This document shows, piece by piece, positions 11,932-45,178 of a stretch of 64,000 nt of DNA (the stretch's first letter is position 1; the number at the start of each line of letters is the position of its first letter). The translations under genes and the position numbers were made by a program. This DNA comes from Pseudoalteromonas sp. NC201 (GTDB taxonomy: Bacteria > Pseudomonadota > Gammaproteobacteria > Enterobacterales > Alteromonadaceae). Below the pieces are notes generated by a model, which worked only from the letters and a program-made list of their open reading frames with translations, made no database searches and was not told where the DNA came from. The stretch covers positions 810,097-874,096 of the forward strand of contig NZ_CP022522.1 in the NCBI RefSeq assembly GCF_002850255.1, in the 5' to 3' direction.

Positions 11932-12564
11932 ATGTATTCAATTCACCCTTTGTGGCAGCAATTCCCTTGTGCCGACAAAACCGCGCTGCAAGGTACAGAG
12001 CTCGCCTCGTATCACAACCCGCAGATCAATAAGACAGTGCGCTTTAAGCTGATCTCAAAAGCGGATTTACCACTATTTTGTCAGTGGATGAACGATCCTC
12101 GAGTTGCACATTTTTGGCAGCAGGCGTGGTCAGAAGAAAAGCAGTGGCAGTATCTCAGCGAACGTTTAGCAGACAACTTTAGTTTGCCGCTCGTCATGTA
12201 TTTTGATGAGCAGCCATTTGGCTATGTTGAAGTTTATTGGGCTGAGTTAGATAAGTTAGCGGGATATTATGAGTGGCAGCCCAAAGATAGAGGCGTCCAT
12301 TTATTAGTTGGCGAGCAATCATGTAGAGGTCCCGAAAATTTTCGTGCTTGGATGACCAGTTTAAGTCACCTTATTTATTTAGGGCATGAAGATACTCAGC
12401 GTATTGTGCTAGAGCCTCGCCATGATAATACGCGGCTACTCACTCGCATTGCAGAGCTTGGTTATCATAGCCAGTTTGAGTTTGACTTTCCTCATAAGCG
12501 TGCTGCGTTAGTGATGGCTGAGAAAGCTTCATTCTATCGAGACGTTTTTCCTCAGTTTGCTTAG
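11932..12564 (+). CDS. siderophore GNAT acetyltransferase (IucB/RhbD-like)
   Basis: 210 residues. The Acetyltransf_8 family acylates the hydroxylated side-chain amine of lysine, ornithine or diamines to make a hydroxamate. Family features are visible: CQWMNDPRVAHFW near residue 44, PFGYVEVYWAELDKLAGYY near 96, DRGVHLLVGEQSCRGP with the conserved His and acetyl-CoA loop near 120, and a TQRIVLEPRHDN strand. With the PvdA-like ornithine hydroxylase at 41347-42651, the expected product is N5-acetyl-N5-hydroxyornithine. It converges with the FhuF-like gene and overlaps it by 36 bp. GGAAAAG precedes the ATG. Confidence 0.88.
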   Translation: MYSIHPLWQQFPCADKTALQGTELASYHNPQINKTVRFKLISKADLPLFCQWMNDPRVAHFWQQAWSEEKQWQYLSERLADNFSLPLVMYFDEQPFGYVEVYWAELDKLAGYYEWQPKDRGVHLLVGEQSCRGPENFRAWMTSLSHLIYLGHEDTQRIVLEPRHDNTRLLTRIAELGYHSQFEFDFPHKRAALVMAEKASFYRDVFPQFA

Positions 12565-13290
12565 GTTACTTAGCGCGGCTTTTCTTTGCACCATATTGTG
12601 CTTGTGTTTGGGACAGTCGCGGCAGTAATTGCCATTTTCTCGGTCGTGGAGAAGGCAGCATTCAGGGCGGATTTGATATTTGCCACTCGGATCATGTGCG
12701 GTTATTTCGGTAAACTTAAGCGGATTCTTTAGCGCCCCTAAGTGGGCGGATGTAGTCAGTATTTGTTTATCTTCAAGCAATGTTGGATGCGCACCCACAA
12801 GCCCCATAATAATGTCGAAAAAGTCGTTCAAGCGATAAAAGCAATTACTCCATAACGTCCGCTCTTTTACGCCAAAAGCTTGGTGTAGCAGGTCGTGAAG
12901 CGGTGATAAGTGATTGAACAATAAGTCGTGATAGCGTGTTTCTGTGTCAGTGTTTTTAAGTGCTTTACCTTGATGCGGCAGCAAAATGCTGAGCTGCTCA
13001 GGGTTGTAGCTCAATTCGCAAAGCTTTAGTGGCAAGGGTGTTAGCAATAATGAATGGCTCACGATGATGCTTGGAAAAATATTGAAGGTGTAATACATAT
13101 GCCACACGGAGGCTTGAGCCCTTGATTTCGTTACGCCTCTCTCTAAGCTAAAGCGAGTTATATGGTCGATAAAATGTGGTGACTCTAATAACTCAGAAAA
13201 AGTCGCTGTAGATCGTAAGGGGGTGAGGTCAACACCTTGCGCATACGTATCATAAGGAGGTTTAAAAAAAGGCACTAAATTCGGCAGCAT
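12529..13290 (-). CDS. FhuF-type ferric siderophore reductase
   Basis: 253 residues, soluble. The C-terminus carries Cys211, Cys212, Cys223 and Cys226 in the spacing C-C-x10-C-x2-C, the unusual [2Fe-2S] motif that defines FhuF reductases. These reduce Fe(III) in hydroxamate siderophores in the cytoplasm to release Fe(II). The rest of the protein fits the alpha-helical ferric iron reductase family. It is divergent from the DapE-like gene and convergent with the acetyltransferase. Its presence says that the intact ferric siderophore is taken into the cytoplasm, although no inner-membrane importer gene is in the window. Confidence 0.9.
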   Translation of the reverse strand: MLPNLVPFFKPPYDTYAQGVDLTPLRSTATFSELLESPHFIDHITRFSLERGVTKSRAQASVWHMYYTFNIFPSIIVSHSLLLTPLPLKLCELSYNPEQLSILLPHQGKALKNTDTETRYHDLLFNHLSPLHDLLHQAFGVKERTLWSNCFYRLNDFFDIIMGLVGAHPTLLEDKQILTTSAHLGALKNPLKFTEITAHDPSGKYQIRPECCLLHDRENGNYCRDCPKHKHNMVQRKAALSNLSKLRKNVSIE

Positions 13291-13610
13291 TGAAACGAAC
13301 AGCTATAGAGGTTTATGGTTAATGACGAAGCGCAACTTCATTAATTTAATACCGCCTTTTAGTCTCAAACTCCCACATTACTTTAGTGCTTATGTTTGTT
13401 TGGCTGTTATCTGCCAAAAACGGCACTAGAAAATGCAGTTAATGGTCAAATTACATGTTTTGGCGGGGTAAAAAATACCGAACACCGACAAATCAATAAT
13501 CTTATGTAAAAAAATTTAGTTTAGTTTCGTCACTAGTCTGAGTGTCGTGGTTGCTGCCTAAAAGTGGTGTGCAACAAAAACAAATATTCGGCTTGGGAAC
13601 TAGGCTCTAC
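13291..13610. other. divergent intergenic region, fhuF-like / dapE-like
   Basis: About 320 bp between two divergent starts, AT-rich, and expected to hold both promoters. I looked for a 19-bp Fur-type inverted repeat and for a sigma-54 -24/-12 element on both strands and saw neither convincingly. A GTG at 13542 could extend the DapE-like frame into this region. Confidence 0.4.
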
Positions 13611-14807
13611 ATGCAAGAACTAACTAAAAAAATAACCCAAATAAGTACCTCTATAAGTCTTCTACAGGAGTTCATCGCGGCGCCGTCTGTGACGCCTTGT
13701 GATGCCGGGTTGATCTTAACAATCGCCCAATATCTTGAGGAACTCGGGTTTGAAACCTCATGGTTTGAAGAAAATGGAGTGCGTAACCTTATAGCCAAGC
13801 AGGTTTTTTCTGAAGGTCCAAGTTTTGCATTTTCTGGTCATGTTGATGTTGTCCCCGCTGAGCAGGAGCATTGGCATTCCGATCCATTTAAAGCGACTGT
13901 CGTAAACGATGTTATTTATGGCAGGGGCGTGTCCGATATGAAAGGGGGCATTGCTGCCATGCTGAGTGCCACACGAGTCTTACTGGCTTCGAAGCAAAAG
14001 CTTAAAGGCACTTTCTATTGGTTGCTGACATCCGATGAAGAGGGGGAAGCTGAATTTGGTACCAAGCGAATCGTCGAGCGACTCAGTCAAGATGGTGTAA
14101 CGATTGACGCTTGCCTTGTTGGAGAGCCTACCTCACACAATCGAGTGGGTGATGTGATCCGAAATGGTCGCCGCGGCTCAATCTCAGGTGCCATAAAAAT
14201 TGAAGGGAAAGCAGGCCATGTCGCTTATCCCGAACAAACGGTCAATGCAGCACATATCGCGGGTAAAGTAGTGGCGATACTATGCAGTTTACAGTGGCAA
14301 AAAGACCAACCAGATGTCAAAACAACCCTTCAAGTCACGGGCGTCAATACGACGACTGATGTGGATAATATCGTACCTGAAGCGTGTCAGGTTAATTTCA
14401 ATATTAGATACAGCCATGGGTATTGTAATCAAGAGATCATCGGCATTATCGAAAATCACTTAGCAAGATTTAAAGACAACCTGAGCCTAGATTGGTCAAG
14501 GGCATGTAACCCCTATTATACCAGTGCAGATATGGAAAATTCGTTCTTAAACTTAGTGGAAAACGCCATCGTGCGGTGTACTGCGAGATATCCCATAGTA
14601 AACACCGCTGGAGGCACGTCTGATGGGCGTTTTTTTGCCAATGGCCACACCCAAACGATTGAATGTGGTGTTAAAAACGACACGATACACCAAGCCAATG
14701 AGTGTTTACCCATAAGTGATTTACTGGAAATCGAGCAGATTTATTTAACGGTGCTCAGTGATTTTTTTGGCGCAAAGCAACACCTTAACTTGCCCGCTGG
14801 TGAATAA
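13611..14807 (+). CDS. DapE-like M20 metallopeptidase
   Basis: About 398 residues. It matches succinyl-diaminopimelate desuccinylase closely: FSGHVDVVPAEQEHW (metal His-Asp), YGRGVSDMKGGIAAML (metal Asp), TSDEEGEAEFGT (catalytic and metal Glu), GEPTSHNRVGDVIRNGRRGSISG, and GGTSDGRFFA with the C-terminal metal His in NDTIHQANE. DapE removes succinate from N-succinyl-diaminopimelate in lysine synthesis. Its place inside a siderophore locus suggests a paralogue that trims an N-acyl group from a precursor, but this is inference. The frame opens at GTG 13542; the ATG at 13611 matches the family N-terminus. If the genome lacks another dapE, it is simply the housekeeping gene. Confidence 0.85.
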   Translation: MQELTKKITQISTSISLLQEFIAAPSVTPCDAGLILTIAQYLEELGFETSWFEENGVRNLIAKQVFSEGPSFAFSGHVDVVPAEQEHWHSDPFKATVVNDVIYGRGVSDMKGGIAAMLSATRVLLASKQKLKGTFYWLLTSDEEGEAEFGTKRIVERLSQDGVTIDACLVGEPTSHNRVGDVIRNGRRGSISGAIKIEGKAGHVAYPEQTVNAAHIAGKVVAILCSLQWQKDQPDVKTTLQVTGVNTTTDVDNIVPEACQVNFNIRYSHGYCNQEIIGIIENHLARFKDNLSLDWSRACNPYYTSADMENSFLNLVENAIVRCTARYPIVNTAGGTSDGRFFANGHTQTIECGVKNDTIHQANECLPISDLLEIEQIYLTVLSDFFGAKQHLNLPAGE

Positions 14808-14829
14808 GTTGCACGCCGTCAGGCAGACA

Positions 14830-14980: not shown

Positions 14981-15073
14981 AAATCTAGTTTTTTTTAGAC
15001 TTTCATTAAACAACTTTAGAAGTGCTTCGTCTTGTTGCTATCAGACTCAGTAATTGAATTATGAGGAAATCGT

Positions 15074-16690
15074 GTGCTTGGGTATTTAATTCGTCAATCA
15101 AAATGGTTGTTAGGTGCGGCTGTGTTCACGAGTGCAATCTGCGGTGTGTGTGCCGTATTGTTACTCACGCAAATTAATAAGGTATTGAATTCATCACAAC
15201 AAGAAGCCAATCAATTTTTTGGTATTTTTGTGGCTTTGGTGGTGGCTGTGCTGTTTTTTCAGGTGGTGGCTTCAACATTGTTTGAGCGATTGAGTCAACA
15301 GGCACATGCTGTGCTGAGAAGGCATATTTCAGATAAGGTGCTGCAAGCAGATTATCGTCAACTTGAAGAAGTAGGCGGAGCCAAGGTGCAATCAGCGCTG
15401 TCTGAACACTGTTTAAAAGTTGCTGAGTTTTTCGTCCGGTTACCGGTGATCGTCGTCAATGGTATTATTGTAATTGGTTGTATGGCTTACATCGCTTGGT
15501 TATCGCTGGATGTATTTGTGATGGCGCTGGTGGTCTTGGGTTTAGGCTCTATTGGCTATCATTTGGTTCATCTCAAAGCCATCGGCTATTTAAATGGTGC
15601 AGCAAAAGAGCAAGATCGCTTGTTTGGACACTTTAGTGCTTTGGTTGATGGTGCCAAAGAGCTACGCTTGCATGCTGGTAAAAGACAGCGATTTGCAGAT
15701 AACGTGCTTGGAGATTCCATTGAATCGGTTCGTAAGCAACGGACGGTGGGCATGTCTGTCTTTGTTATTTCTACCGCTTGGGGAAATTTCTTAATCTACG
15801 CATTTATTGGCGCGGTTTTGTTCGCGCTGGTAGCAGATTCAGCGCAGCGTACCCAAATACTAACGGGCTTTGCGTTGGTCTTTATATATATGATTGCGCC
15901 CTTAGAGAACTTACTAAAGGCTCTGCCCGCGGCCAATATAGCGAAAGCATCAGCTGCACGCATTGAAGCTGTTACCGCGCATTTATCCGAAGGAGCGAAA
16001 GAAAAGCACTTACCGAATGCGCCTTCCTCGTTTAAACAGCTTGAATTAAGCGGGTTAACACATCAGTTTTATCATGAACCTTCTGATGATTTATTCACAC
16101 TTGGACCTATCGATTTATCGTTTAAACCGGGGGAAATTGTCTTTTTGGTTGGCGGTAATGGCAGTGGCAAAACCACGCTGGCTAAGATGTTGGTCGGATT
16201 ATACAAGAGTAATACTGGTCAACTTCGCTTAGATGGCAAAACCATTAACCCTGAAGATCTAGATGAGTATAGACAGCTTTTCACCGCAATTTTCTCTGAC
16301 TTTTATCTGTTTGAAGAATTGCTGGATATCCCTTCGGCTGAATTAGATGCGGCCGCAAACTCACTGTTAGAAAAGCTCCAACTTAATCGTAAAGTGCATG
16401 TTGCCAATGGTGCATTTTCAACGCGTGCGTTATCTCAAGGGCAAAGAAAGCGACTAGCCATGGTGGTAGCCCATTTAGAGCAGCGTCCGTTTTTAGTCTT
16501 TGATGAATGGGCGGCGGACCAAGATCCTATATTTAAAGAGGTGTTTTATCGCCAGTTATTACCAGAGCTTAAAGCGCAGGGTAAAACGCTGTTGGTTATC
16601 TCTCATGACGATAAGTATTTTGACTGCGCCGATCGACTGTTGCGAATGGAGCACGGCCAACTTTATCAGCGTGAAGAGGCAGCTGCATAA
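15074..16690 (+). CDS. PvdE-like peptide/siderophore ABC exporter (fused permease-ATPase)
   Basis: 538 residues, GTG start with GAGGAAA upstream. The N-terminal ~310 residues carry six hydrophobic helices of an ABC exporter. The C-terminal ATPase has Walker A GGNGSGKTT (near residues 360-368), the signature LSQGQRKRL, and Walker B FLVFDEWAADQD near 477. The unusual LSQGQ signature and DEWAADQDP run are typical of the cyclic-peptide/pyoverdine PvdE exporter family, which moves the assembled peptide from cytoplasm to periplasm. It lies upstream of mbtH and the assembly line and most likely exports the siderophore. A paralogue is at 56992-58713. Confidence 0.92.
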   Translation: MLGYLIRQSKWLLGAAVFTSAICGVCAVLLLTQINKVLNSSQQEANQFFGIFVALVVAVLFFQVVASTLFERLSQQAHAVLRRHISDKVLQADYRQLEEVGGAKVQSALSEHCLKVAEFFVRLPVIVVNGIIVIGCMAYIAWLSLDVFVMALVVLGLGSIGYHLVHLKAIGYLNGAAKEQDRLFGHFSALVDGAKELRLHAGKRQRFADNVLGDSIESVRKQRTVGMSVFVISTAWGNFLIYAFIGAVLFALVADSAQRTQILTGFALVFIYMIAPLENLLKALPAANIAKASAARIEAVTAHLSEGAKEKHLPNAPSSFKQLELSGLTHQFYHEPSDDLFTLGPIDLSFKPGEIVFLVGGNGSGKTTLAKMLVGLYKSNTGQLRLDGKTINPEDLDEYRQLFTAIFSDFYLFEELLDIPSAELDAAANSLLEKLQLNRKVHVANGAFSTRALSQGQRKRLAMVVAHLEQRPFLVFDEWAADQDPIFKEVFYRQLLPELKAQGKTLLVISHDDKYFDCADRLLRMEHGQLYQREEAAA

Positions 16691-16750: not shown

Positions 16751-17003
16751 GATAACCGCTTAGCGGCTAAGCATATTTAGGCCGCGATATCCCTACCCAT
16801 ATGCTTTCAATTATCTGCACTGGTAAAAAATCAGAATATAGACGCTTTTTTCTTTAAACAATTCGCATTTCTATTCGTCTACAGAGGCAATATCGCCAAA
16901 TTTATTGGCATGTTGAGAAGGTAGCACGGAGATACATACCTCATGGCTACCCAACCTCATCAGAATGTAAACCGACTGCCTATAGTAGCAGTGCAATATT
17001 TAT

Positions 17004-17009
17004 CAGGAG
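17004..17009 (+). promoter_or_regulatory. ribosome binding site deciding the mbtH start
   Basis: CAGGAG ends 5 nt before the ATG at 17015. The alternative ATG at 16943 has GGAG about 11 nt away and would give an N-terminal extension that MbtH proteins normally lack. Confidence 0.7.
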
Positions 17010-17014
17010 ATGTC

Positions 17015-17251
17015 ATGTCAGTGAGCTGTTTTGACCGCGAAGATGAAACCTTCATCGTGCTTATTAATCAAGAAGAACAATATTCAATTTGGCCCGAGTG
17101 GAAAGCGGTACCAGTGGGTTGGCAAGCTGTAGCTGGTGTTCAGGGCGATAAGGCCCACGTGCAAAGCTACATTAACGAGCACTGGACTGATATGCGTCCT
17201 GCTTCTTTGCGTCAGTGGATGGCTGAGCAAGCGCAACAAGGTGACGCGTGA
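17015..17251 (+). CDS. MbtH-family NRPS activator
   Basis: 78 residues from the preferred start, the usual family size. The signature is complete: [22 protein letters not shown], then VPVGWQAV, and near the end [11 protein letters not shown]. MbtH proteins bind NRPS adenylation domains and are needed for their solubility or activity. The gene's stop overlaps the GTG start of the type II thioesterase by 4 bp, so the two are translationally coupled at the head of the biosynthetic operon. A longer start at 16943 would give 102 residues. Confidence 0.93.
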
Positions 17252-17988
17252 GTACATCAAGCATTAAGCTGTTGTGCCTGCCTTGTGCTGGGGCGAGTGC
17301 CTCAATGTACTTACGTTGGAGTCGGCAATTGCCTAGCTGGATAAAGCTAGTGCCCATTGAGCTTGCAGGAAGAGGCCCTAGGTTAGATGAAGAGAAAGTC
17401 GAAAACTACCACGAGCAAGTGAGTGCGATACTTCAGTGTTATCAGCATGAGATGACCGGTGATTATGCTTTTTTTGGTCATAGCATGGGAGCTTTGCTTG
17501 CCTATGGCGTAACACTGCAGTTGCAACAGCGCAATTTACCTTTGCCTAACACTTTGATGCTATCGGCGTGTCCTGCGCCACAGTTTATTCATCCTGAGCG
17601 CTATCCAGAACCTAATGATCGGCAAGCGCTCATTGCTGAATTGCGAGCGCAGGGAGGAACGCCAGACATGCTATTTGACAATGCTGATTTATTGGAAATG
17701 ACGCTTGAGGTGCTGGCCGCTGACTATCACGCATTGCGCTCGTTTACGCCACCGAGCTCTTCGCAAATAACCGTGCCGGTAACCACTTTTTATGGTCACG
17801 ATGACTTAATCAGTGTTAGCGAAGTACTGGCCTGGCAGCAACACGCCCGTCAACCATTATCGCAACAAGGGTTCGCTGGTGGGCATTTTTATATTCACAG
17901 TGCCCAAGCTTCAGTGTTGTCTGCACTTGAGCAAACACTGAGTCGCCATAATACATCAGCGGCTGCTTTGGTCAGTAGTTGTGAGTAA
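17248..17988 (+). CDS. type II thioesterase (GrsT/RifR-like)
   Basis: 246 residues, alpha/beta hydrolase. The early [17 protein letters not shown] motif, nucleophile Ser79 in [12 protein letters not shown], an Asp in GHDDLIS (about 185) and His213 in FAGGHFY form the catalytic triad of editing thioesterases. These clear misprimed or stalled acyl groups from carrier proteins of NRPS and PKS lines. It overlaps mbtH by 4 bp and is 126 bp before the first megasynthase gene, so it almost certainly serves this assembly line. Confidence 0.92.
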
Positions 17989-18114: not shown

Positions 18115-21100
18115 ATGCAACACAAGCCATTACAACTAAACCCGTATCTCACGGGCGAGACGCCCCACAGCATGGTTGAGCGTTTACAACACCTTGCCCA
18201 GATCCAAGCAGATAAAACCGCGCTGGTGGTCGTTAGTGACAAAGAAGGTGTGCTGGATGAGCGCTCATTTACCTATGGTGAATTAGATATACAGATTAAA
18301 AGACTAGCGGCCGAGCTGCAGCTACAGTGTCGTCAAGGTGATCGCGTGCTGTTGATGCTAGATAACAATGAACACTATGTTATCAGTTTCTTCGCATGCC
18401 TTTATGCCGGTCTCATCGCGGTTCCTTTATTTGTTCCCGAATCTTCACGTTCTCAGCATATTCAGCGCGTTGTTGGGATTGCGTTAAATTGTCAAGCAAC
18501 CGCTATTTTAGCGCATTCTGCAGATCATCAGTTAGTTGAACTAGCCAAACAAGAAATGCACAACAGCGGCCTAAGTGCTGCAAGTTTACTGTTTGTTGAC
18601 CAGTTAAATTATCAAGAGAATACCTGCTGGCAAGCGCATACGCCACAACCACAAGAGTTGGCATTTTTACAATATACCTCAGGCTCAACGGCAGCACCAA
18701 AGGGTGTTATGGTGAGTCACGGTAATTTGATTGCAAATGAAATTGCCATCAGCGAAGGGAGTGGGGTGATAGCAGACGAGGTTGTGGTGTCTTGGTTGCC
18801 TCTGTACCACGATATGGGATTAATGGCCGGCTTGATTTTGCCTTTATTCAATGGCTCAAAATGTGTCTTGATGTCGCCTCGCTACTTCCTTGAAAAACCA
18901 ATCCGCTGGCTTGAAGCAATTGCTAGACACCGAGGTACGTCAAGCGGTGGTCCAGATTTTGGTTATCGCTTGTGTGTTGAAAGGATAAGGCCAAGCGCAA
19001 TGGCGAACTTGGATCTGTCTTCTTGGCAAGTGGCCTTTAGTGGCGCAGAGCCTGTAAGGGTTGATACGCTTGATAGCTTTTTTGCACAAGCCACGCCAGC
19101 AGGTTTTAATCCTCAAGCCATATACCCGTGTTATGGATTGGCTGAAGCAACCTTATTTGTTACTGGGCCAAAAAGACAATCTGGCCTAGTGGTACAGTCA
19201 TTTTCTGCTGCCTCACTTGCACAAGGTATCGCACAACAAGCTGAGCACGGCGTAAAGCAGGTAGCCTGTGGCGTACCAGCTTCACATCATAGTATACGGA
19301 TCACAGACAACACGACCAAGGCGGCATTGCCGGCAGGACATGTGGGTGAAATTTGGGTATCGGGGCCGAGTATTGCTCAGGGCTATTGGCAAAACCCAGC
19401 TGCAACGGCAGACACCTTTGTAGAACATGAGCAAGCGCGTTGGCTGCGCACTGGGGACTTAGGGGTTTGGCAAGATAATCAACTATACATTGTTGGCCGC
19501 ATCAAGGATTTGATCATTTCTCATGGTCGCAATATCTATCCTCAGGATATTGAAAAAATTATCGAAACGGAATTTGAGTTCGCCCGTAAAGGTCGGATCG
19601 CGGTATTTGCAGCCACGGATAACCATAGCGAAGGCGTTGGTGTAGCCCTAGAAATTGCGCGCAAGGTTCAGCGCCAAGTGAGTCCGCAGTTGTTGGTCAA
19701 TCGCTTAAAGGAAATCGTTGCAGAATATTGTGATGAGTCCGTCACAGGCGTTTTGATGATGCAACCTGCAAGCTTGCCAAAAACGTCCAGTGGCAAATTA
19801 CAGCGTAGCGCCTGCAAGCAAATGTGGACGCAAGCCGCTGAACTGAGTGTCGCTGCGCCACTGTCAGACGATAATGTTGATAAGGCTTATGCGATTTATG
19901 CACATAATCAGCTGGTGCGTGGTCAAACACTGGCAGATACTTTGGCCCCAGCACCTTTATCAGAACACGAGCAAGCACTGGCCGATATCTGGCAAGCCGT
20001 GCTCAATCGTAAGAGTGATTTTAGTCGTGACGCACACTTTCTAGCAGAGGGCGGTAACTCGCTAAAAGCGGTGCAGTTAATTCACGCCATTGAGCAACAT
20101 TGGCAAGTGAAGTTTGACCCCACAGAAATATTTCATTGTTTGCGCTTAGGCGAGCAAGCCGATGCTATTTTGGCCGCGTCACAACGTCAACAGTTGGTGG
20201 CTAAAGAAGCTTCCAGCGTGTCATCAATAAATTCCATTATTGCCAACGAGTATGGAATTGAGCAGGCCGTTCCAATGTCTCATGCGCAAGCGAGACTATG
20301 GTTTTTATGGCAACTAGAACCCCATAGCAGTGCTTACAATATTGGTGCGCGCATCAACCTACACTCAGATATAGACGCTACGCGCTTGCAAAACGCGTTA
20401 AATACTCTGGTGGCTGAACACCAAGCCCTGCGCACACGCTTTGATACCGATGAACTTGGTACGGCAATCCAAGTGGTTGCGCAAACGGGTCATTGGCCGC
20501 TGCAACAATTTGACTTAAGTAATGTTGCAGCGTCGCAGCAAGCTTCGGCATTGGCTGAATTGGTTGCCACAGTGAGTCAATACGCATTTGATTTAACTAA
20601 AGGGGATGTCGTCAACGCGGCGCTAATTAATCTAGGTGAGCAAGGCTATCAGCTGATTATAGTGATGCATCACATCGTTTCCGATGGCGTATCGATGCAA
20701 ATATTACTAGACCAACTTGCGCATATTTATTTGGGAACCTTGAGTGCGAGTAAAGTGCGAGAGGGCACAATCACCTATCAAGACTTTTCTTTGTGGCAGC
20801 GGTCGTATCTCACCTCCGATGCAGCGCAAGCACAATTAACGTGGTGGCAAGCACAGCTCGCCTGCGATGAGCAACCTATTTTGCAGTTGTGCACGGATTT
20901 CCCTCGAGTCAATAAAGCGCACTCTCCTGAAAATAATAAGCAACTGTTAGGTGCAAATCACAGTGTCGTCTTACCGGCTCAACTGGTTAAGCAACTTCGT
21001 CGCCAAGCGGCCAAACAAAACGCCAGCTTATTTATGGTGATGTTAGCCAGTTTTCATGCATTGCTTTATCGTCATACTGGGCAACATGACATTCGAGTGG

Positions 21101-23571: not shown

Positions 23572-23573
23572 GC

Positions 23574-34400: not shown

Positions 34401-37400
34401 TCAAGATGAGCAGCAATTAGCTCAAGCGCTTGGTGAAAATGTTCCGGATTATATGGTGCCCAATGCGTTTGTGGTGTTAGATAAAATGCCACTGACAGCC
34501 AATGGTAAAGTCGATAGCAAAGCTTTGCCTGAGCCGCAATGGGCCAAAGCGCAAGAATACAGCGCACCGATAGGTGAGGCTGAAACCATGGCTGCACACC
34601 TATGGGCAGATTTACTCGGCCTTGAGCGAGTGGGCAGGGATGACAACTTCTTCTCGTTAGGTGGCCACTCACTGCTGGCGATTAAGCTGGTGGAGCGTGC
34701 CCGCCAAGCTGGCTGGCAAGCACAAGTGAAAACCCTATTTAGTCAGCCAGTGCTCAAACACTTCGCTGCTGCCCTTACGCCTTACCGCCAAGATACGGCA
34801 CCAGAAACCGCATGGTCAGGGATTGCGACGGATACCGCTGTTATCACCAGTGAAATGCTGCCATTGGTCAGTCTGGATAATGACCAGATAGCTAAAGTCG
34901 TCGAGCAAGTAGATGGGGGCGTACAAAATGTCCAAGATATTTATCCGCTGGCACCGCTGCAGTCGGGAATTTTATTCCATCATACTTTGCAAGAAAAAGG
35001 CGACGCTTACATTACGCCTAATCTATTACGTTTTGAAAGCCGCGCGCAGCTAAGTGCATTTGTTGATGCGCTTAACCTTGTTATTGCCCGTCATGATATT
35101 CTGCGGACAGCCATTTTTTGGCAGGGCCTGCCTGAGCCTGTGCAAGTTGTGCAGCGTCAGGCCAAAGTGGAAATCAAGTGGTTAGATTATGCCTGTGATG
35201 CGCCATTAGCTGCTGATGAAGCGGGCTTAACGGCAGCAGCAAGACGCTTAAATGAAGCCGTAGATCCAACCCACTTTAGACTAAATACACAGTGTGCACC
35301 TTTAATTGCCGCCATCGCTATTGCCGAAGTGCAAGACGAGACCTGCTGGTTGCAACTGCCGAGTCATCATTTAGTGATGGATCACACCAGCTTAGAAGTA
35401 CTCGTTGAAGAAGTGCAGATGATTTTAGCGGGTAATGTAGCGCTACTGCCAGAGCCTGTGCCGTTTAGACATTTTGTGGCGCTAGCGCAGCAAAACCCAG
35501 AGGCCGAAGCGGAGCAAAATACGTTCTTTAGCGAATTATTAGGGGATATAGAAACGCCAACTGCGCCATTTGGGTTGTTAGATATTAAGGGCACAGGTGA
35601 GGACATTCTAACGCACGAAACTGCCGTGCCTGAAGCACTGGCCGCCCAAGTGCGCCACCTTGCCGTAAAGCAAAACACCAGTGCTGCGGCGGTATTCCAC
35701 CTAGCTTGGGCGATGGTGCTACAAAAGCTGACCGGACTAAATGATCCGGTATTTGGCACGGTGATGTTTGGCCGTTCACAAGGTGGAGAAGGCGCCGATA
35801 GGGCTGTTGGCATGTTTATCAATACATTGCCGATCCGTTTTCGATTGCGCCAAGCAGATCTTAAATCAGGATTGCAACAAGCGCAGCAGCTGTTAACTGC
35901 GCTTATTTGCCATGAAAGTGCGAGCTTATCCAAAGCACAATCTTGCAGCAACGTAGCGAAAGGAACGCCGCTGTTTTCGACGCTGTTGAACTATCGCTAT
36001 AGCCCAAATGCGCACAAACATGGTGATTCGAAAAAGCTCTATGTTACCGATGATGGCTGGCAAGTATTTGGCGGTGAGGAACGCACCAATTACCCTATTG
36101 GAGTTTCTATTGACGATGCTGGCGATGGCTTTAACATCGTAGCGCAAACACTACCGAGTGTTGAACCTGCGCAGTTGTGTGGCTATTTACTGAATGCGTT
36201 GACTCAGCTTGTCGCAGAGCCTGCACTAAGACAGCTAGGTGATTGGCAAGCGTTGACTGACAATGCGTGGCAAACTCAGCGCTTGTGGAGCGAAAACACC
36301 ACCAAAGAGAACACCCAGCAAGCGATCTACCGCTTATTTGAAGCACAGGTGCAAAAACAGCCTGACGCTATTGCCGTCACATTTAAAAACAATCACGTGC
36401 GTTACGCTGAGCTTAACCAACAAGCGAATCAGCTCGCGCATTATCTACAATCACGAGGCGTGGGTATAGAGAGCCGAGTCGCTGTGGGCATGTGGCGTAG
36501 TGTTGAAACCGTGATAAGTCTGTTGGCAATCATGAAAGTGGGCGCCTCGTACGTACCACTAGATTTAGATTATCCAGCGGAGCGTTTGCAATATATTGTG
36601 GCGTCAAGTGGCGTACAGTTGCTATTGACTCATGCTGAAGGGGTAGATGCACTGCCGCCATTCCCTGAGCAGCTCACGCAGTGTGTATGGCAACAGATAG
36701 ACTTAGCGCCATACAGCCAAGATAATCTCATTGTCGATGCTCACCCAGAGCAACTGGCTTATGTGATTTATACCTCAGGCTCGACGGGACGACCTAAAGG
36801 CGTGGCTATTAGTCACCGCTCACTGGTTAGCTGTATGCAGTGGATGCAGCGCGAGTATCAACTCACACGGGAAGATGCGGTGTTACATAAGGCACCATTT
36901 GGCTTTGATGTGTCTTGTTGGGAGCTATTTTTCCCACTGAGTCAAGGCGGCCGCATTGTAGTATCTGAACCCGGAGATCATAAAGATCCAGACAAATTAA
37001 TTGCACTTATCAAGGCGCAACAAGTTACAACAGCAAGTTTTGTACCGACGATGCTACAAGCCTTTATTGAGCAAACTAACCCCAATGAAGAGAACTATTT
37101 ACGTAACATTATGGTAGGAGGAGAGGCTGCGCCACCGGAACTTCGTCAACGTATGTTCGCCGCACTACCAAATGCTAAGGTGCATAATTTATATGGACCA
37201 ACAGAAACCACAATTCATGTGACCAACTGGGAGTTTACGCAAGCGCCACGAACCACAATTCCAATCGGTCGTGCTATCTCAAACACCAGTTGCTACGTAC
37301 TCGATGAATACTTGACGCCAGTTCCTCAAGGGGTAGTAGGTGAGCTCTATTTAGGTGGAGTAGGGTTGAGCCGGGGTTATCTTAACCGCCCTGACTTAAC

Positions 37401-39061: not shown

Positions 39062-41260
39062 TTACCATTGGTAAGTTGCAGTTAATGCGATGTTTCGGCG
39101 ACTGCCATAGGAGCAGGATGTTTCACCACATGAAGCGATAACCTTTTTGTCAGTTAGGTTACGTACGTTCAGTGCAAAGCGCCATTGTGCCAGATCATAG
39201 CTTGCCATGGCATCAAACAGGGTGTAACCCTCAACGGTTTTAGGTGCTTTTTCACCAGTACCTTTGTTACTACCCGTGTAACGTGCGCCTAAACCTACAG
39301 TGAAGTCGTCAGTAAGTTGATAGTCACTCCAGATATTAAACTGATGCTTTGAAACTGCTTTATCCTGTTTGCCGACTTCGTCAGCAAGTCTTGGATCAAG
39401 ACCACTCTCAGTGACATCCGCTTTAGGAATATAAGCGTAAGAAGCGGTTAAGTTCATTTTTTCAGTTGGTTGTACAAAGGTATCAAACTCTAAACCGCGC
39501 ACAACGACGGCACCCGTTTGTTTGTAGCCAGCAGGTTCGGTTGTCCATACCCACTGAGTGAAGTCACTACGTTCAATCTCAAATACCGCTGCACTATAGC
39601 TTGAAGTTGAGTCCTTTGGTTGATAGCGCACACCGGTTTCGTATTGTTTACCTGTTTCAGGTGAGAAAGGACGAGCGGTAGCAGGGTCAACATTGGTTGT
39701 CGGTGCAAAAGATTCAGAGTAGCTAAAGTAAGGTGCTAAGCCGTTGTCAGCTAAATAAACAACCCCGGCGCGAGCACTAAATTCTCTGTCTGTACGCACT
39801 GATGTCGGGTCTACTTGACCTTCTAGCGTCTCATTTTTTAGCTTTGCTTCATCCCAACGACCAGCCAAAGAAATGATGATCTTCTCATTAATTTTGATTT
39901 GGTCTTGGATATAAATACCAAATTGCTCTAGCTTGGAAACACCCTTGATATTAGGTTCAGGTTGGATCACACTTGAGCCGTAAGTCGGGTTAAAGATATC
40001 AAGATCAGCTAACACACCGCCGTAGCGCGCTCTCACTTCAATCTCTGTATCTTGATAATCGGCACCAATGAGTAATGTGTGTTCTACGTTGCCGTGTGAA
40101 AACTGACCGATCAAATGCGTGTCGATAGTAGCGCCGCTGACTTTCTCTTTACTTGATAGTGGAGTACGGGCTAAGTAACGGAAGTTTTCTGGGTCACTTG
40201 GGTTATCAGCATTTTTTTGCGCCCATTTACCCCAAATGACGCCATAGTCAACGTCAAATTCCGCATAGCGCGCGTGTTGCTTGATTTGCCAGTTGTCATT
40301 GAAATGATATTCGCCTTTATAACCTACTACCCACTGCTCTTGGTTGTAGCGGTTGAAATCAGGCTCACCAATCAATGTTGAAAACGGGATTTGGCCGTTA
40401 GGGTTAGGTAAAATAGTACCTGTTGTTGGGTAGGCGTGCCAAGCAGCGCCAGACTCAATGTCGTAGTATTGTGAATAAAAGGTGATTTTCCCTTGGCTAC
40501 TTGGTTGCCAAGTCATTGACAGTGCTAGGTAGTCGCGATCGTTTTCTAGTGGATCGGTACTCAAATCAGATTTTTTGGTTAAGCCTGTCACGCGATATAA
40601 ATACTCGCTGTCGTCGTCAATTGGACCTGACATATCAACGGCTAGTTGTTTGAGGCTGTTATTGCCAAGTTTGATCTGCAGCTCATTTTGCGAAAATGGC
40701 GTTGGCATTTTACTAACTAGGTTAACGACGCCACCTGGACCATTTTGACCATATAATACTGAAGAGGGGCCTTTAAGAATTTCTATACGCTCCATACCGT
40801 AGCTTTCGGTCTGCCATAAACCCCAGTTACCACTGTTACGGATCTGTAGACCATCTTGGTAGAAACCAGGTGCATAAGCATCAAAGCCACGAATGTATAA
40901 CCAATCGTATTGTGGTAAGTCACCCCAAGGTGCGGTATTTACACCTGCGGTATATGATAATGCTTCTGTTACACGCGTTGCGCCGATGGCTTCAATTTTG
41001 TCTGCGGTGACAACATTGATGGTTTGTGGCACCTCAATTATTGCAACATCGATTTTTGAGCCAGTTGCACTGCGGCGTGCATTGTAACCTTCAACCGGAC
41101 CTGTTGCCGTTTCTTGGTCGGCATCAGCATTGACGGTAACCGCTTTTAGTTTGCTTGGCGAGTTACCTTCAGCATGTGCAGTTGATACCAGTGTTAAACC
41201 TAAAATGGCGGCAGCAATTGGTGATAGGGTTAACAATGGGGTTGAGCGTTGTTGTTTCAC
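39062..41260 (-). CDS. TonB-dependent siderophore receptor
   Basis: 732 residues, outer membrane. The signal peptide ends near STAHA (about residue 30). There is no STN signalling domain. A TonB-box-like LKAVTVNA precedes the plug domain (VPQTINVVTADKIEAIGATRVTEALSYTAGV, GMERIEILKGPSSVLYGQNGPGGVVNLVSKMP), and a long beta-barrel follows, ending in the C-terminal aromatic TATYQW. The plug sequence is that of FhuE/FpvA-type hydroxamate siderophore receptors. It is co-directional with and 86 bp downstream of the ornithine hydroxylase gene, likely one operon, so it should import the siderophore made by the adjacent assembly line. Confidence 0.95.
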   Translation of the reverse strand: MKQQRSTPLLTLSPIAAAILGLTLVSTAHAEGNSPSKLKAVTVNADADQETATGPVEGYNARRSATGSKIDVAIIEVPQTINVVTADKIEAIGATRVTEALSYTAGVNTAPWGDLPQYDWLYIRGFDAYAPGFYQDGLQIRNSGNWGLWQTESYGMERIEILKGPSSVLYGQNGPGGVVNLVSKMPTPFSQNELQIKLGNNSLKQLAVDMSGPIDDDSEYLYRVTGLTKKSDLSTDPLENDRDYLALSMTWQPSSQGKITFYSQYYDIESGAAWHAYPTTGTILPNPNGQIPFSTLIGEPDFNRYNQEQWVVGYKGEYHFNDNWQIKQHARYAEFDVDYGVIWGKWAQKNADNPSDPENFRYLARTPLSSKEKVSGATIDTHLIGQFSHGNVEHTLLIGADYQDTEIEVRARYGGVLADLDIFNPTYGSSVIQPEPNIKGVSKLEQFGIYIQDQIKINEKIIISLAGRWDEAKLKNETLEGQVDPTSVRTDREFSARAGVVYLADNGLAPYFSYSESFAPTTNVDPATARPFSPETGKQYETGVRYQPKDSTSSYSAAVFEIERSDFTQWVWTTEPAGYKQTGAVVVRGLEFDTFVQPTEKMNLTASYAYIPKADVTESGLDPRLADEVGKQDKAVSKHQFNIWSDYQLTDDFTVGLGARYTGSNKGTGEKAPKTVEGYTLFDAMASYDLAQWRFALNVRNLTDKKVIASCGETSCSYGSRRNIALTATYQW

Positions 41261-41346: not shown

Positions 41347-42651
41347 CTAGTCCACTAGCGCCGTGTTATCAGTAACTTGAGGCGTTGATGTTTGTTTTAG
41401 TTGTTTAAGTACCTCACCAATTTCTTGGCTACGGACTGCCAAAATTGATAACAAGGTATCGCTCAGTCCATGGGAACTTTCGCATGCGCCTTGCAAGAAA
41501 ATATTCGGTTTAAAGTCTTCCGTGCTTTGAATGCGGTAGTCGCGTCCCACAGTAAAGTCACCTAAGTATTTTGATAAAGGTGCCAATAGCGTTTTGTGCT
41601 GATCTCGTACATAGCCTGTTGCCAACACTACCGCATCGTAGCTACACACTTTAGTGTCGCCAGTTTTGCGGTTTGTGAGGGTTAGATGAATACCGTTTTC
41701 GTCCGCGTCAACCGCTGCGACCTCTGTGCTAGAAAGGAAGCGATGGCGATAGTGGCTGCGTACTTTTTGTTCGTAAAATACGCCGTAAATTTGTTCGATA
41801 AGGGGTAAGTCAGGACAAGCGTAATTGGTCTGGCGGTATTCTTTTAAGAAGGCTTCGCGTTCGATATCGGATTTGGAGAAAACTTTATCAGTATATTCTG
41901 CATTGAAGATTTCATTTACAAATGGACTGTCGTCCGATGGCTTAATAGAGTTTGCACGAATAACAAAATCGACTTGGTTATCATCTGCGCGGCCGTGTAA
42001 ATCCATAAATATTTCGGCGGCACTTTGGCCTGCGCCAATGACGGCAATTTTCTTAGCTGTGTTATTTGCTTCAATAGCAACTTTGTAATCATTGCTGTGG
42101 AATACGCGGGTGTCGCCCGCCAGCTTTCTAAATTGTTTTGGTATATATCCACCACCACCAATACTGATGACTAGGTTATCTGTTTCAACGACTTTTTCAC
42201 TGCCATCAACACCTCTGGAATGCACTTGTAGCGCAACAACTTGCTCGTTTGCTAAAATCGGTTGGACATCAAATACTGTTTCGCCATAGCTGGTTTGATC
42301 TTTAAAATGCGAAGCCGCCCATGCTAAGTAGTCGTTAAACTCATGTCGGCTTGGGAAAAATGTTTGAAGGTTGATAAAGTCTGCTAAGCGATTTTTTTGG
42401 TGTAAATAGTTAATAAACGTAAATTCACTTTTAGGATTACGAATAGTGACAAGGTCTTTCAAAAAGGAAATTTGCATGTGCGTGTTTTCGAGCATCATAT
42501 TTTTATGCCATGAAAACTCTGGCTGACGTTCCATAAACAAGGCATGGTTAGCCCAATCTGTTAGGCCTTGCTCACGAAGTGCGATTGCTAGTGCAATATT
42601 AGAAGGTCCGAAGCCAATACCTACTAATGAAAAGCGAGATGTGTTGTTCAT
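41347..42651 (-). CDS. L-ornithine N5-monooxygenase (PvdA-like)
   Basis: 434 residues, flavin-dependent N-hydroxylase. FAD motif GIGFGPSN at residues 12-19, the substrate region QISFLKDLVTIRNPKSEFTF, the NADPH motif VIGAGQSAAE, DDSPFVNEIFNAEYTDKV, and the C-terminal LATGYVRDQHKTLL and ASCESSHGLSDTL-like blocks track PvdA closely. PvdA oxidises the side-chain amine of ornithine to N5-hydroxyornithine. Lysine hydroxylase IucD is related, so lysine cannot be fully excluded, but the FLKDLVTIRNP and NYLHQKNRLADFINLQTFFPSR stretches look more like PvdA. The acetyltransferase at 11932 would complete the hydroxamate. The receptor gene follows on the same strand. Confidence 0.92.
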   Translation of the reverse strand: MNNTSRFSLVGIGFGPSNIALAIALREQGLTDWANHALFMERQPEFSWHKNMMLENTHMQISFLKDLVTIRNPKSEFTFINYLHQKNRLADFINLQTFFPSRHEFNDYLAWAASHFKDQTSYGETVFDVQPILANEQVVALQVHSRGVDGSEKVVETDNLVISIGGGGYIPKQFRKLAGDTRVFHSNDYKVAIEANNTAKKIAVIGAGQSAAEIFMDLHGRADDNQVDFVIRANSIKPSDDSPFVNEIFNAEYTDKVFSKSDIEREAFLKEYRQTNYACPDLPLIEQIYGVFYEQKVRSHYRHRFLSSTEVAAVDADENGIHLTLTNRKTGDTKVCSYDAVVLATGYVRDQHKTLLAPLSKYLGDFTVGRDYRIQSTEDFKPNIFLQGACESSHGLSDTLLSILAVRSQEIGEVLKQLKQTSTPQVTDNTALVD

Positions 42652-42730
42652 ACTTAATCCTCACAGTTACGGTTAGCTACTGCTATTGTCCTAGGGCCTG
42701 CTGAGCGTCAAGACCGACAGGGCACTATTA

Positions 42731-42892: not shown

Positions 42893-43075
42893 GACTATCA
42901 GAAGCTCAACTAAAATTATGTTTTGGATTAGACGAGTGAGAATTTAATTTATTTAAATATTTATGAAATTAATTCGTATTTAAACTGTCTAACGAGATCC
43001 TTCGTCGTTTAGTGCCTAATCTCTGCCCGTTGCACTGTGTTAAAAAAGCTAAGTTCTATCTATTTATCAATCTTC

Positions 43076-43113
43076 ATAGCGCTATAACAAGGCGACACCC
43101 CGCTTAGCGCTAT
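43076..43113 (-). terminator. stem-loop after exbD
   Basis: Perfect 9-bp arms ATAGCGCTA (43076-43084) and TAGCGCTAT (43105-43113) with a 20-nt loop, just past the exbD stop on the minus strand. No strong T-run directly follows on that strand, so it may be a Rho-assisted terminator or mRNA-stabilising hairpin of the tonB-exbB-exbD operon. Confidence 0.45.
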
Positions 43114-43123
43114 CTTGCTTTTA

Positions 43124-43540
43124 TTACTTGGTTTGTGTCACAAAGTTCAGCGAGTTAACGCCCGATTGCTGCGCCAGTGCCATAACCTCGACTATTTTTT
43201 CATAGGGAACTTTGGCAGCCCCTTGTAATTGGATCGGAGGCTGCGGTGATTGTGCGGCAACTTCCACTAAACGTTGTTTAAGTTGCGCGAGCGTGATGGC
43301 TTGTTGTTGCCACTGAATATCACCATTCGCTTGTACTATCAAAGAAACGCTGTCGGGCAATATCTCTGCGCTGGTTTCTTGCAAGGCTGCTTTGGGCAGC
43401 TCTACTTCAATGGACTGAGTGATCACAGGCATGGTGATAATAAAAATGATCAGCAATACCAACATCACATCCACAAGTGGTGTCATGTTTATTTCAGCCA
43501 TGACCTCTTCGTCATCTTCAAACCCTTGGCCAAACGCCAT
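43124..43540 (-). CDS. exbD: biopolymer transport protein ExbD
   Basis: 138 residues. A cytoplasmic N-terminus (FEDDEEVMAEINMTPLVDVMLVLLIIFII) carries the conserved membrane Asp in PLVDVMLVLL, which is needed for proton use. The C-terminal two thirds is periplasmic. With ExbB it forms the proton-driven motor that energises TonB. Its start overlaps the exbB stop by one base (TAATG). It is the last gene of the tonB-exbB-exbD operon. Confidence 0.95.
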   Translation of the reverse strand: MAFGQGFEDDEEVMAEINMTPLVDVMLVLLIIFIITMPVITQSIEVELPKAALQETSAEILPDSVSLIVQANGDIQWQQQAITLAQLKQRLVEVAAQSPQPPIQLQGAAKVPYEKIVEVMALAQQSGVNSLNFVTQTK

Positions 43541-44262
43541 TATTTACCTCCGACCGATTTAAATACTGGGCGCTTAGCGTTTGCATTTGGTGCAGAGCCC
43601 ATCAGTAAGAATGCGTGTAATTCGTGAGCAAAGTGGTTCAGGCGGTTTACAACGCGTTTGTTTCCCCGAGTGAGTGCGTTGTAACCCAGTACTGCGGGGA
43701 TAGCGACGGCAAGGCCAAAAGCAGTCATAATTAATGCTTCACCCACAGGACCTGCTACTTTGTCGATACTTGCTTGGCCACTAACGCCAATGCTTATCAG
43801 GGCATGGTAAATTCCCCATACCGTGCCAAACAAGCCGATAAAAGGAGCGGTGGCACCAATGGAAGCTAGTATCGCTAAGTTACTCTGTAGTTCCGATTTA
43901 CTTTCGTCAATAGAAGTTCGTAAGCTGGCAGTTAACCATTCCGCGATAGGTAAATTACCATGCAAATCTTCTTTGTGTTGCTCATGATGCGCCTTGGCAT
44001 GCATGCCTTCGTTGACCAGTGAACTAAAGGGCGTTGCTTGGCCCGTTGGAGTTTCGAGTAATAAAATACCTGACTGTACATCTTGTGCGTGCCAAAACTG
44101 CTTGGAGCCAACAAGTGGCTGTTTTAATTTATAAAGCTTAATGCCTTTGATTAATATGACGCACCAAGTTGCGATTGACATAAACAGCAAACTAAACGCT
44201 ACTGCTTTAATGACGATATCGCTTTGTGCCCACATGGCGGCGATTCCGTATGGGTTCTCCAT
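43540..44262 (-). CDS. exbB: biopolymer transport protein ExbB
   Basis: 240 residues, MotA/TolQ/ExbB family. Three membrane helices are apparent at about residues 17-37, 130-152 and 165-190, with the conserved LASIGATAPFIGLFGTVWGIYHAL and VAGPVGEALIMTAFGLAVAIPAV blocks. It assembles as the pentameric stator around ExbD. It lies 13 bp after tonB and overlaps exbD by a base, so all three are co-translated. Confidence 0.96.
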   Translation of the reverse strand: MENPYGIAAMWAQSDIVIKAVAFSLLFMSIATWCVILIKGIKLYKLKQPLVGSKQFWHAQDVQSGILLLETPTGQATPFSSLVNEGMHAKAHHEQHKEDLHGNLPIAEWLTASLRTSIDESKSELQSNLAILASIGATAPFIGLFGTVWGIYHALISIGVSGQASIDKVAGPVGEALIMTAFGLAVAIPAVLGYNALTRGNKRVVNRLNHFAHELHAFLLMGSAPNANAKRPVFKSVGGK

Positions 44263-44275
44263 GACTGTTCCTTAT

Positions 44276-45178
44276 TTAATTTAATGCAAAATTGACAGGC
44301 TGTAGGTACCAATAACCGATCGCTTGTCCGTCTTGAGTTGCCGGTTGGTATTGCCAGTGCTTTACAGTTGCTTTTGCAGACTGATCTAGGCGACCGTGGC
44401 CACTCGACTCATGTATTTCTATCTCAGAGACGCTGCCGTCCGCTTCAATATAAATTTTTAATAAGACTGTCCCTTGTTCTTTAAATTTACGGGATAATCT
44501 TGGGTAAATAGGTGCCGGATTGTTTAATGCATTAGCGTCACTCATGTGCGGCAATACAAGTCCTGGCGGTAAACTCGGATCCTGAGAAGTGGTGGCCGCC
44601 TCAGCTGTGTTACTAACATCTTTTTGTTCTGGTTGGACTGCGGAGCTGACTGGAGCAGGCTCTACAACAGGCTCAGGCTCTACAACAGGTTCAGGCTCTA
44701 CAACAGGTTCAGGCTCCACAACAGGTTCAGGCTCCACAACAGGCTCAGGCTCTACAACAGGCTCAGGCTCTACAACAGGCTCAGGCTCTACAACAGGCTC
44801 AGGCTCTACAACAGGCTCAGGCTCTACAACAGGTTCAGGCTCTACAACAGGCTCAGGCTCTACAACAGGCTCAGGCTCTACAATAGGCTCAGGCTCTACA
44901 ATAGGTTCAGGCTCTACAATAGGTTCAGGCTCTACAATAGGTTCAGGTTGTTGAACTGTGGTTTCCTTTGTTTGCGCTGGTAAGTTGATAAACTTGCCCT
45001 TAATGCTCGAGTGCTGAGAAGATATTTCCACTGGCTCAGGTGTTGAGGTAGTTGTCCACGCAAAAGCAATGCCTCCGATATGAATAGCAATAACAAGGAA
45101 ACATGAACTTAAGGACGCGACGTCTGGGGTTTGCTGTCGCAAAGCTTTTGTGTGTGAGGTAGGCACAACTACGTACAT
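44276..45178 (-). CDS. tonB: TonB protein with a long Glu-Pro repeat linker
   Basis: 300 residues. An N-terminal membrane anchor (SSCFLVIAIHIGGIAFAW, about 24-41) is followed by a periplasm-spanning linker and a C-terminal TonB domain (PIYPRLSRKFKEQGTVLLKIYIEADGSVSEIEIHESSGHGRLDQSA... with YQPA near the end). The linker contains 16 consecutive six-residue repeats, 12 EPVVEP and 4 EPIVEP; E. coli TonB instead has separate Glu-Pro and Lys-Pro runs. The protein links inner-membrane energy to the receptor at 39062. It is the first gene of the operon, with a Fur-like box just upstream. Confidence 0.94.
   Translation of the reverse strand: MYVVVPTSHTKALRQQTPDVASLSSCFLVIAIHIGGIAFAWTTTSTPEPVEISSQHSSIKGKFINLPAQTKETTVQQPEPIVEPEPIVEPEPIVEPEPIVEPEPVVEPEPVVEPEPVVEPEPVVEPEPVVEPEPVVEPEPVVEPEPVVEPEPVVEPEPVVEPEPVVEPEPVVEPAPVSSAVQPEQKDVSNTAEAATTSQDPSLPPGLVLPHMSDANALNNPAPIYPRLSRKFKEQGTVLLKIYIEADGSVSEIEIHESSGHGRLDQSAKATVKHWQYQPATQDGQAIGYWYLQPVNFALN
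44655..44945 (-). repeat. 16 tandem copies of an 18-bp repeat inside tonB
   Basis: On the plus strand the unit is GGCTCAGGCTCTACAACA with C/T and AACA/AATA variants; on the coding strand each copy encodes EPVVEP or EPIVEP. The four AATA copies (isoleucine) are all at the 5' (N-terminal) end and the 12 AACA copies follow, so the array seems to have grown by local duplication. In-frame length changes would alter linker reach without breaking the gene. Confidence 0.95.

Follow-up and report, generated by a model that had tools for sequence, protein, structure and literature searches.

What is made by an assembly line that is predicted to load a fatty acid and stands among genes for hydroxamate formation and iron uptake, and how could the product hold its iron? 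The question is raised by positions 11932-45178 of a 64,000-nucleotide stretch of Pseudoalteromonas sp. NC201 (contig NZ_CP022522.1, positions 810,097 to 874,096; the whole stretch analysed is called the window), where a combined nonribosomal peptide synthetase (NRPS) and polyketide synthase (PKS) is encoded. The contig measures 4.13 Mb, and the genome, which has two contigs, 5.38 Mb. Taken as a whole, the sequence is best explained as a self-contained locus for an amphiphilic siderophore, a reading to which a probability of roughly 0.68 is assigned. The predicted product consists, in this order, of a fatty acyl group, 4-amino-7-guanidino-3-hydroxyheptanoate, Ser, D-N5-acetyl-N5-hydroxyornithine and a second N5-acetyl-N5-hydroxyornithine.

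The assembly line and its predicted product

Pfam and NCBIfam scans reveal an intact assembly line of the order FAAL-ACP-C-A-T / KS-AT-KR-ACP / C-A-T / C-A-T-(E/C)-A-T-TE (FAAL, fatty acyl-adenylate ligase; C, condensation; A, adenylation; E, epimerisation; TE, thioesterase; ACP and T, carriers; KS, AT and KR, the PKS domains), with all domains and accessory genes in open frames (Table 1). Among solved structures, the FAAL is most similar to chains that bear the names polyketide synthase and saframycin Mx1 synthetase B; fatty acyl-adenylate ligases, FadD23, FadD28 and FadD32 among them, come next. In the PKS, the KS motifs TACST, HGTGT and NVGH are present, and the AT carries GHSIGE and HAFH and no YASH; we take HAFH to indicate malonyl specificity and YASH methylmalonyl specificity. 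The KR tyrosine motif, the carrier serines and the GWSLG motif of the thioesterase are all in place, and the malonyl AT and KS/KR motifs recur in the orthologous lines of a relative, G077, and of Colwellia psychrerythraea GAB14E. The ambiguous (E/C) domain of the third NRPS contains HHx5GD, a motif that typifies dual E/C domains and is kept in both of these orthologues; it looks like a dual E/C domain, a reading that also fits a C-A-T-X-A-T arrangement without separate E and C domains.

The substrate codes were read from a core-motif alignment of the A domains, with positions mapped by GrsA numbering. The first code, DAEHIGAIT, departs at a single position from the published Arg pattern D(A/V)E-D-(I/V/L)GA(V/I)(T/D), the second, DVWHFSLIE, is Ser-like, and the third and fourth are identical (DVWSMGLIH). 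The corresponding Colwellia codes are DAEHIGAIT, DVWHFSLID and, twice, DVWNMGLIH; such near-identity at an A-domain identity of 55-66% indicates that the codes are under constraint. A Thr-like reading of the third and fourth codes (Thr code, DFWNIGMVHK) was set aside because passages of a 2025 survey list DVWNIGLIHK among the codes for modified Orn (PMC12283262) and because Colwellia has DVWNMGLIH. No TauD match was found in the four assembly-line proteins, and no Asp or Pro code among their A domains.

These features suggest the following synthesis: The FAAL would load a fatty acid, with which Arg (less likely Lys or Orn) would be N-acylated; malonate extension and reduction would then yield 4-amino-7-guanidino-3-hydroxyheptanoate. 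Ser and subsequently D- and L-N5-acetyl-N5-hydroxyornithine would be added, and the thioesterase would free the product, in all likelihood as a linear acid. The stereochemistry, the length of the acyl chain, its retention and the linear release are all inferred. For the Arg form with two acetyl hydroxamates and a C12:0 acyl group, the predicted formula is C37H69N9O12, with [M+H]+ at 832.5138 and a ferric ion at 885.4253; C10:0 and C14:0 would give 804.4825 and 860.5451, and acetyl-hydroxyornithine with C12 has the same mass as formyl-hydroxyornithine with C14.

Predicted hydroxamate formation, export and uptake

The two enzymes expected of a hydroxamate locus, an ornithine N5-hydroxylase and a hydroxylamine acyltransferase, are both present. 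The hydroxylase is, by its scores, nearer to ornithine than to lysine hydroxylases (453 bits to its best solved relative, L-ornithine 5-monooxygenase, versus 301 bits to the lysine enzyme MbtG); its top NCBIfam name, histamine N-monooxygenase, is far below cut-off (190 versus 700). Among five hydroxylase matches in the genome, it is the sole strong one, the others reaching at most 27.6 bits. The NCBIfam names returned for the GNAT protein are aminoglycoside acetyltransferases, at no more than 35 bits against cut-offs of at least 260. A TonB-dependent receptor and a FhuF-type reductase complete the set, the latter over the Pfam threshold and just short of the NCBIfam one; the best names for the receptor are FhuA (498 bits) and ferrioxamine receptors, each below its own cut-off. 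The TonB protein has an extended series of near-identical Glu-Pro repeats, and its frame in another relative, G048, is shorter (228 versus 300 residues).

The siderophore would be exported by the ABC protein, and its ferric complex would re-enter through the FhuA-like receptor, driven by the dedicated TonB-ExbB-ExbD, after which FhuF-type reduction would free the iron. The two hydroxamates would provide four donors; the last two may come from the 3-hydroxy gamma-amino unit, from other ligands or from a second siderophore molecule.

Two other kinds of siderophore pathway were looked for. The host genome has no IucA/IucC match, and its three isochorismatases, with frames of 175-200 codons, are too short for the isochorismatase-carrier fusion of related loci (288 residues), so no rival pathway of these kinds was found. 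Likewise, no catechol (2,3-dihydroxybenzoate) genes were detected among the scanned cluster genes of the window or in the Colwellia region. An acylated NRPS-PKS hydroxamate siderophore built from a malonate-extended basic residue, Ser and two hydroxamate residues had been proposed, with the domain order given above, in an initial annotation of the window. The scans and intact motifs bear out the order, and the domains, hydroxylase and GNAT protein agree with the compound class; the HAFH motif and the near-Arg code are as predicted for the extended residue, and the Ser code and the paired DVWSMGLIH, close to the modified-Orn code, for the remainder.

Conservation of the cluster

The cluster occurs in three of 147 relatives: the host itself, G048 and G077. 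The PKS orthologues, 99% identical in G048 and 90% in G077, each lie inside the same cluster, with gene order and A codes kept; a further orthologue in C. psychrerythraea GAB14E has 66% identity. Retention of order and codes in the two relatives and of the assembly line in Colwellia makes the locus more than a chance assemblage. Shared with the Colwellia region are the assembly line, the exporter (77%), MbtH (an MbtH-like gene is also present in G077), the type II thioesterase, receptor, hydroxylase, tonB-exbB-exbD and a gene of the M20 hydrolase family. Between its hydroxylase and exbD, Colwellia encodes a protein of 286 residues in which a formyltransferase domain scores 28.6 bits (cut-off 26.1); genes for an ECF sigma factor and a phosphopantetheinyl transferase are also present in the region. 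Probably, a common scaffold bears formyl hydroxamates in Colwellia and acetyl hydroxamates here.

Among the best 120 of 8000 matches in a protein search with the PKS, ten clusters align over nearly full length at 64-99% (P0001-P0008, P0011, P0012), those with a name being P. piscicida, P. prydzensis, an Alteromonadaceae metagenome-assembled genome and Colwellia; these are followed by a partial protein (P0057, 67%) and, as the next full-length one, P0052 (54%), and relatives in Nitrosospira have about 50% identity. Gene content was read for the window, G048, G077 and Colwellia. In samples of the order and the class, neither of which listed G048, G077 or Colwellia, PKS matches were found in 5 of 394 genomes (E <= 1e-280; the others 40-43% identical) and 5 of 369 genomes (E <= 1e-300; the others 40-47%), respectively, the host being included each time; the 20 kb read around each of the four other class matches yielded neither a FAAL nor an ornithine hydroxylase match.

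An ornithine hydroxylase match is present in 16 of the 147 genomes, the host included (E <= 1e-80). Besides the window, loci were read in nine genomes: the orthologous pair G048 and G077; G061, G059, G029, G017, G071 and G089, each with a hydroxylase; and G056, picked for its PKS. Three of them (G061, G059, G029; L050-L055, L058-L060) combine FAAL-C-A-T with KS-AT-KR-ACP, the PKS being 43-44% like that of the window. Their first A code is DAEDHGTVE, an M20 gene adjoins the hydroxylase, and a penicillin amidase, an isochorismatase-carrier fusion and a short-chain dehydrogenase are present, along with a chorismate-binding enzyme (confirmed in G061 and G059) and a formyltransferase domain (G061 and G029). 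Lystabactins contain Ser and two hydroxamates, and the gene content suggests that these are lystabactin-type loci with temporary acylation. The G056 locus (L056-L057), with FAAL, PKS and amidase, no hydroxylase match, and codes including DATKVGEVG and DAEDIGAIT, is a candidate alterobactin-type locus.

Table 1. Features of the predicted siderophore locus (window coordinates)
Feature	Position	Strand	Evidence
GNAT acyltransferase, probable N5-hydroxyornithine N-acetyltransferase	11932..12564	+	PF13523 158.8 bits; SidF and MbtK nearest solved
FhuF-like ferric siderophore reductase	12529..13290	-	PF06276 30.2 bits (cut-off 25.2); TIGR03951 60.8 (just below 63.85); CC-x10-C-x2-C
M20 / DapE-like metallo-amidohydrolase	13542..14807, likely start 13611	+	PRK13009 393 bits (cut-off 284); TIGR01246 359.2 (just below 361.8); DapE nearest solved
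ABC exporter, cyclic-peptide exporter family	15074..16690	+	TIGR01194 423 bits (cut-off 286)
MbtH-like protein	16943..17251	+	PF03621 62 bits
Type II thioesterase	17248..17988	+	PF00975 145 bits
NRPS1, FAAL-ACP-C-A-T; A code Arg-like	18115..23571	+	Domains, code, solved relatives
PKS, KS-AT(malonyl motif)-KR-ACP	23574..28100	+	Domains, motifs; orthologues 99, 90, 66%
NRPS2, C-A-T; A code Ser-like	28103..31486	+	Domains, code
NRPS3, C-A-T-(dual E/C)-A-T-TE; both A codes modified-Orn-like	31486..38919	+	Domains, codes
Putative dual epimerisation/condensation domain in NRPS3	34906..36285	+	HHx5GD motif
TonB-dependent siderophore receptor, FhuA/FoxA-like (hydroxamate type)	39062..41260	-	PF00593, PF07715; TIGR01783 303 bits (cut-off 223.5)
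L-ornithine N5-monooxygenase	41347..42651	-	PF13434 388 bits
ExbD	43124..43540	-	PF02472
ExbB/TolQ-type protein	43540..44262	-	PF01618; tolQ and exbB models both under cut-off
TonB with Glu-Pro repeats	44276..45178	-	PF03544; sequence

A recurrent DapE-like hydrolase gene

Every accessory gene named by the initial annotation was found, but its list left out the M20/DapE-like gene. The likely start of this gene is the point where the G077 protein begins, and the gene belongs to the conserved cluster in G048 and G077. By sequence, the protein is a member of the DapE family: in the alignment, it matches the His, Asp, Glu-Glu, Glu and His motifs of DapE, where they are presumably the metal ligands. 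It was rejected as the housekeeping dapE, being 38% identical to L068, the likely housekeeping copy, and 57% to a separate paralogue, L069. The host has DapE-like paralogues beyond the likely housekeeping gene (G000:C1:1186667-1187797 and C1:2230788-2231906), of which that at C1:1186667 is the nearest kin of the window protein and has counterparts across the genus; another is situated some 6 kb away from a separate NRPS locus. The loop WILNGLPF of the likely housekeeping DapE, with its Gly, is replaced by a Cys-containing one in the nine cluster M20 proteins and these two paralogues.

In 15 of the 16 genomes with a hydroxylase match, a DapE-like gene is no more than 30 kb away from the ornithine hydroxylase gene, and in ten of them the distance is 317-340 bp (matches at E <= 1e-50; four copies were entered for the host and the nearby copy only for the others). 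Colwellia provides a further case. The rough chance of such proximity is 0.046 per genome, although the 15 cases are not independent. The exception, G089, belongs to another family and has no DapE-like match in the parts read of the 30 kb on either side, 14 kb upstream and 25 kb downstream; it has one such match in the genome, at an unlisted position. In a tree of nine cluster proteins and five other M20 proteins of the host, three forks of which are weak, several lineages are seen: the window type, a type shared by G061, G059, G029 and Colwellia, and those of G017 and G071. The Colwellia protein thus groups with the G061 type, while its assembly line resembles that of the window, so that the gene seems to have been swapped with the association preserved.

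Known enzymes of the DapE fold need a free carboxylate beside the amide that they cut, which makes N2-acyl-ornithine and, in a linear siderophore, the amide of the C-terminal hydroxyornithine the likely substrates. The hydrolase would most likely make ornithine from an N2-acyl precursor or degrade the returned siderophore. Judged from sequence, (i) precursor supply is the tentative first choice, held at somewhat less than even odds; (ii) breakdown at the C-terminal hydroxyornithine amide is doubtful; and (iii) some other role is about as doubtful as breakdown. A joint proposal, that hydroxamate loci of Pseudoalteromonas have, on more than one occasion, recruited a DapE-like hydrolase of their own, which destroys the returned chelator by the C-terminal hydroxyornithine cut to free iron beside FhuF reduction, and that the Arg-derived 3-hydroxy gamma-amino unit is the third ligand, giving six donors, is improbable as a whole. 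No report of an M20/DapE gene tied to a siderophore locus was found in a search of titles and abstract starts that left most subscription journals outside. The recurrent gene points to a step in hydroxamate siderophore metabolism and is the least explained part of the locus.

Alternative explanations

Several observations weigh against a self-contained locus for the predicted siderophore. The type II thioesterase is missing from the G077 stretch, and neither FhuF nor GNAT has a match in the 51 kb Colwellia region, so that release by FhuF is not universal. No inner-membrane ferric-siderophore permease is found among the cluster genes (FhuBCD-type genes elsewhere were not searched for), and the four obvious donors fall short of what a hexadentate complex needs. 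Iron regulation was sought with three Fur consensus patterns across the window and one across nine gene gaps, compared with shuffled sequence, and no Fur-like box in the gaps stood clearly above it: the best 19-mer (15/19 at 48900, 0.2 expected) lies within an unrelated gene, and the best gap matches (12/15 at 42962 and 45193) were equalled in 32 and 23 of 300 shuffles. In favour of the reading, one report describes two P. piscicida strains as strongly positive for siderophores in the CAS (chrome azurol S) assay without an antiSMASH siderophore call, with an NRPS near siderophore genes (PMC4359443); its available passages do not name the present locus, and pseudochelin A, reported from other P. 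piscicida strains (PMC11217947), could explain the activity there. That the line makes a lipopeptide other than a siderophore, with iron genes as chance neighbours, would suit the lack of a convincing Fur box and an NRPS-rich genome (63 condensation-domain matches) in which a second giant NRPS cluster adjoins; it is nevertheless hardly credible, as the linkage of receptor, hydroxylase and tonB-exbB-exbD to the line persists across three Pseudoalteromonas and Colwellia, and the genome has no strong ornithine hydroxylase elsewhere.

Other alternatives leave the siderophore in place and alter its structure. The first A code carries His at position 278, where the Arg pattern has Asp, and this departure, together with the Lys-type extended residue known in the genus from alterobactin (PMC6836290, seen in part), favours a malonate-extended residue derived from Lys or Orn, in which case the product would be an acylated alterobactin/lystabactin relative. 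However, it is DAEDHGTVE of the related loci that resembles the Lys code DGEDHGTVVK, given in passages of the 2025 survey (PMC12283262), whereas the window code fits D(A/V)E-x-(I/V/L)GA(V/I)(T/D); a Lys or Orn origin is therefore rated as unlikely. Also to be weighed is the fate of the acyl group. In pyoverdine maturation, an acylated precursor is exported and its acyl group is removed by a periplasmic acylase, and a periplasmic acylase of the penicillin amidase type might likewise remove the fatty acid here as a temporary tag, leaving a final siderophore that is not amphiphilic. By family, the exporter is a cyclic-peptide exporter, a penicillin amidase adjoins a FAAL-NRPS or PKS gene in G061, G059, G029 and G056 (PKS 41-44%), the first three also having catechol genes, and the window itself contains an amidase (54501-56930), one of three in the genome. 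The window enzyme was nonetheless rejected as a cluster acylase: it is 21.7 and 24.5% identical over about 550 residues to two of these four amidases and gives no match at 1e-5 to the others, and a distance of 9.3 kb separates it from the cluster, with an ABC protein and then the next NRPS cluster after it. No relative of it or of the four others occurs in the 51 kb Colwellia region either, and a temporary tag is considered unlikely. Retention of the acyl group, as in an amphiphilic siderophore, is preferred.

Neighbouring genes

Beyond tonB, positions 45337-53988 encode a two-component PAS kinase, a sigma-54 regulator, a frame (48421-49422) without Pfam match, a MacB-type permease and an ABC ATPase. 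The histidine kinase and regulator (45337-48030) and the MacB-type block were considered as cluster members and set aside, there being no kinase match in the 1.3 kb read beside tonB of G048; a kinase/regulator pair adjoins the siderophore locus of G017. Just downstream follows a very large NRPS cluster (window 54501-64000; G000:C1:868861-941475), which starts beside the penicillin amidase and an ABC protein.

Comparison with known siderophores

Amphibactin-type siderophores contain, like the predicted product, a fatty acyl group, Ser and N-acetyl-N-hydroxyornithines; unlike it, they have three hydroxamates and are not known to contain a PKS-extended residue. Such a residue had been called rare, with crochelins as the sole precedent, a view that does not hold: variochelins (PMC10999976) and alterobactin (PMC6836290), in the parts of these sources available, have one as well, so that together with the crochelins they establish PKS-extended amino acids in siderophores, this genus included. 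The product had also been called apparently new. Related siderophores contain the same kinds of building block, but no report of their combination was found, nor any cluster with the present domain order, in titles, abstract starts and passages from a literature search that left most subscription journals outside; what seems new, from the predicted composition, is its shortness, without beta-hydroxyaspartate or catechol. The locus thereby offers a cluster-to-structure prediction for a marine amphiphilic siderophore that seemingly lacks both, and its product therefore bears on the statine-type unit as an iron ligand.

Closest in composition, by which they were compared, are the variochelins of Variovorax. 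According to the passages available, they contain two N-acetyl-N-hydroxyornithines, Pro, Ser, beta-hydroxyaspartate and an acylated gamma-amino acid from Arg and methylmalonate, and the PKS gene is essential by knockout (PMC10999976). An acyl start, an extended Arg, Ser and two hydroxyornithine modules, the variochelin-type features, are all predicted here from domains and codes; both systems would use an NRPS-PKS line to place a fatty acyl group before an Arg-derived gamma-amino-beta-hydroxy acid, Ser and two N5-acetyl-N5-hydroxyornithines. In contrast to the methylmalonate, beta-hydroxyaspartate and Pro of variochelins, the AT motif of the locus is of the malonyl type, none of its codes is for Asp or Pro, and its four assembly-line proteins give no TauD match. 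Alterobactin and lystabactin share with it the genus and a malonate-extended basic gamma-amino-beta-hydroxy acid, which in alterobactin A is (3R,4S)-4,8-diamino-3-hydroxyoctanoic acid (PMC6836290, in part); their unit is Lys-derived and accompanied by catechol, whereas the locus lacks catechol genes and the genome an isochorismatase-carrier fusion. The crochelins of Azotobacter, likened here from their description only, bind iron in a hexadentate manner through a new gamma-amino acid, as far as the available part of the source goes (PMC7947814), and provide a reported precedent for such a unit as a ligand.

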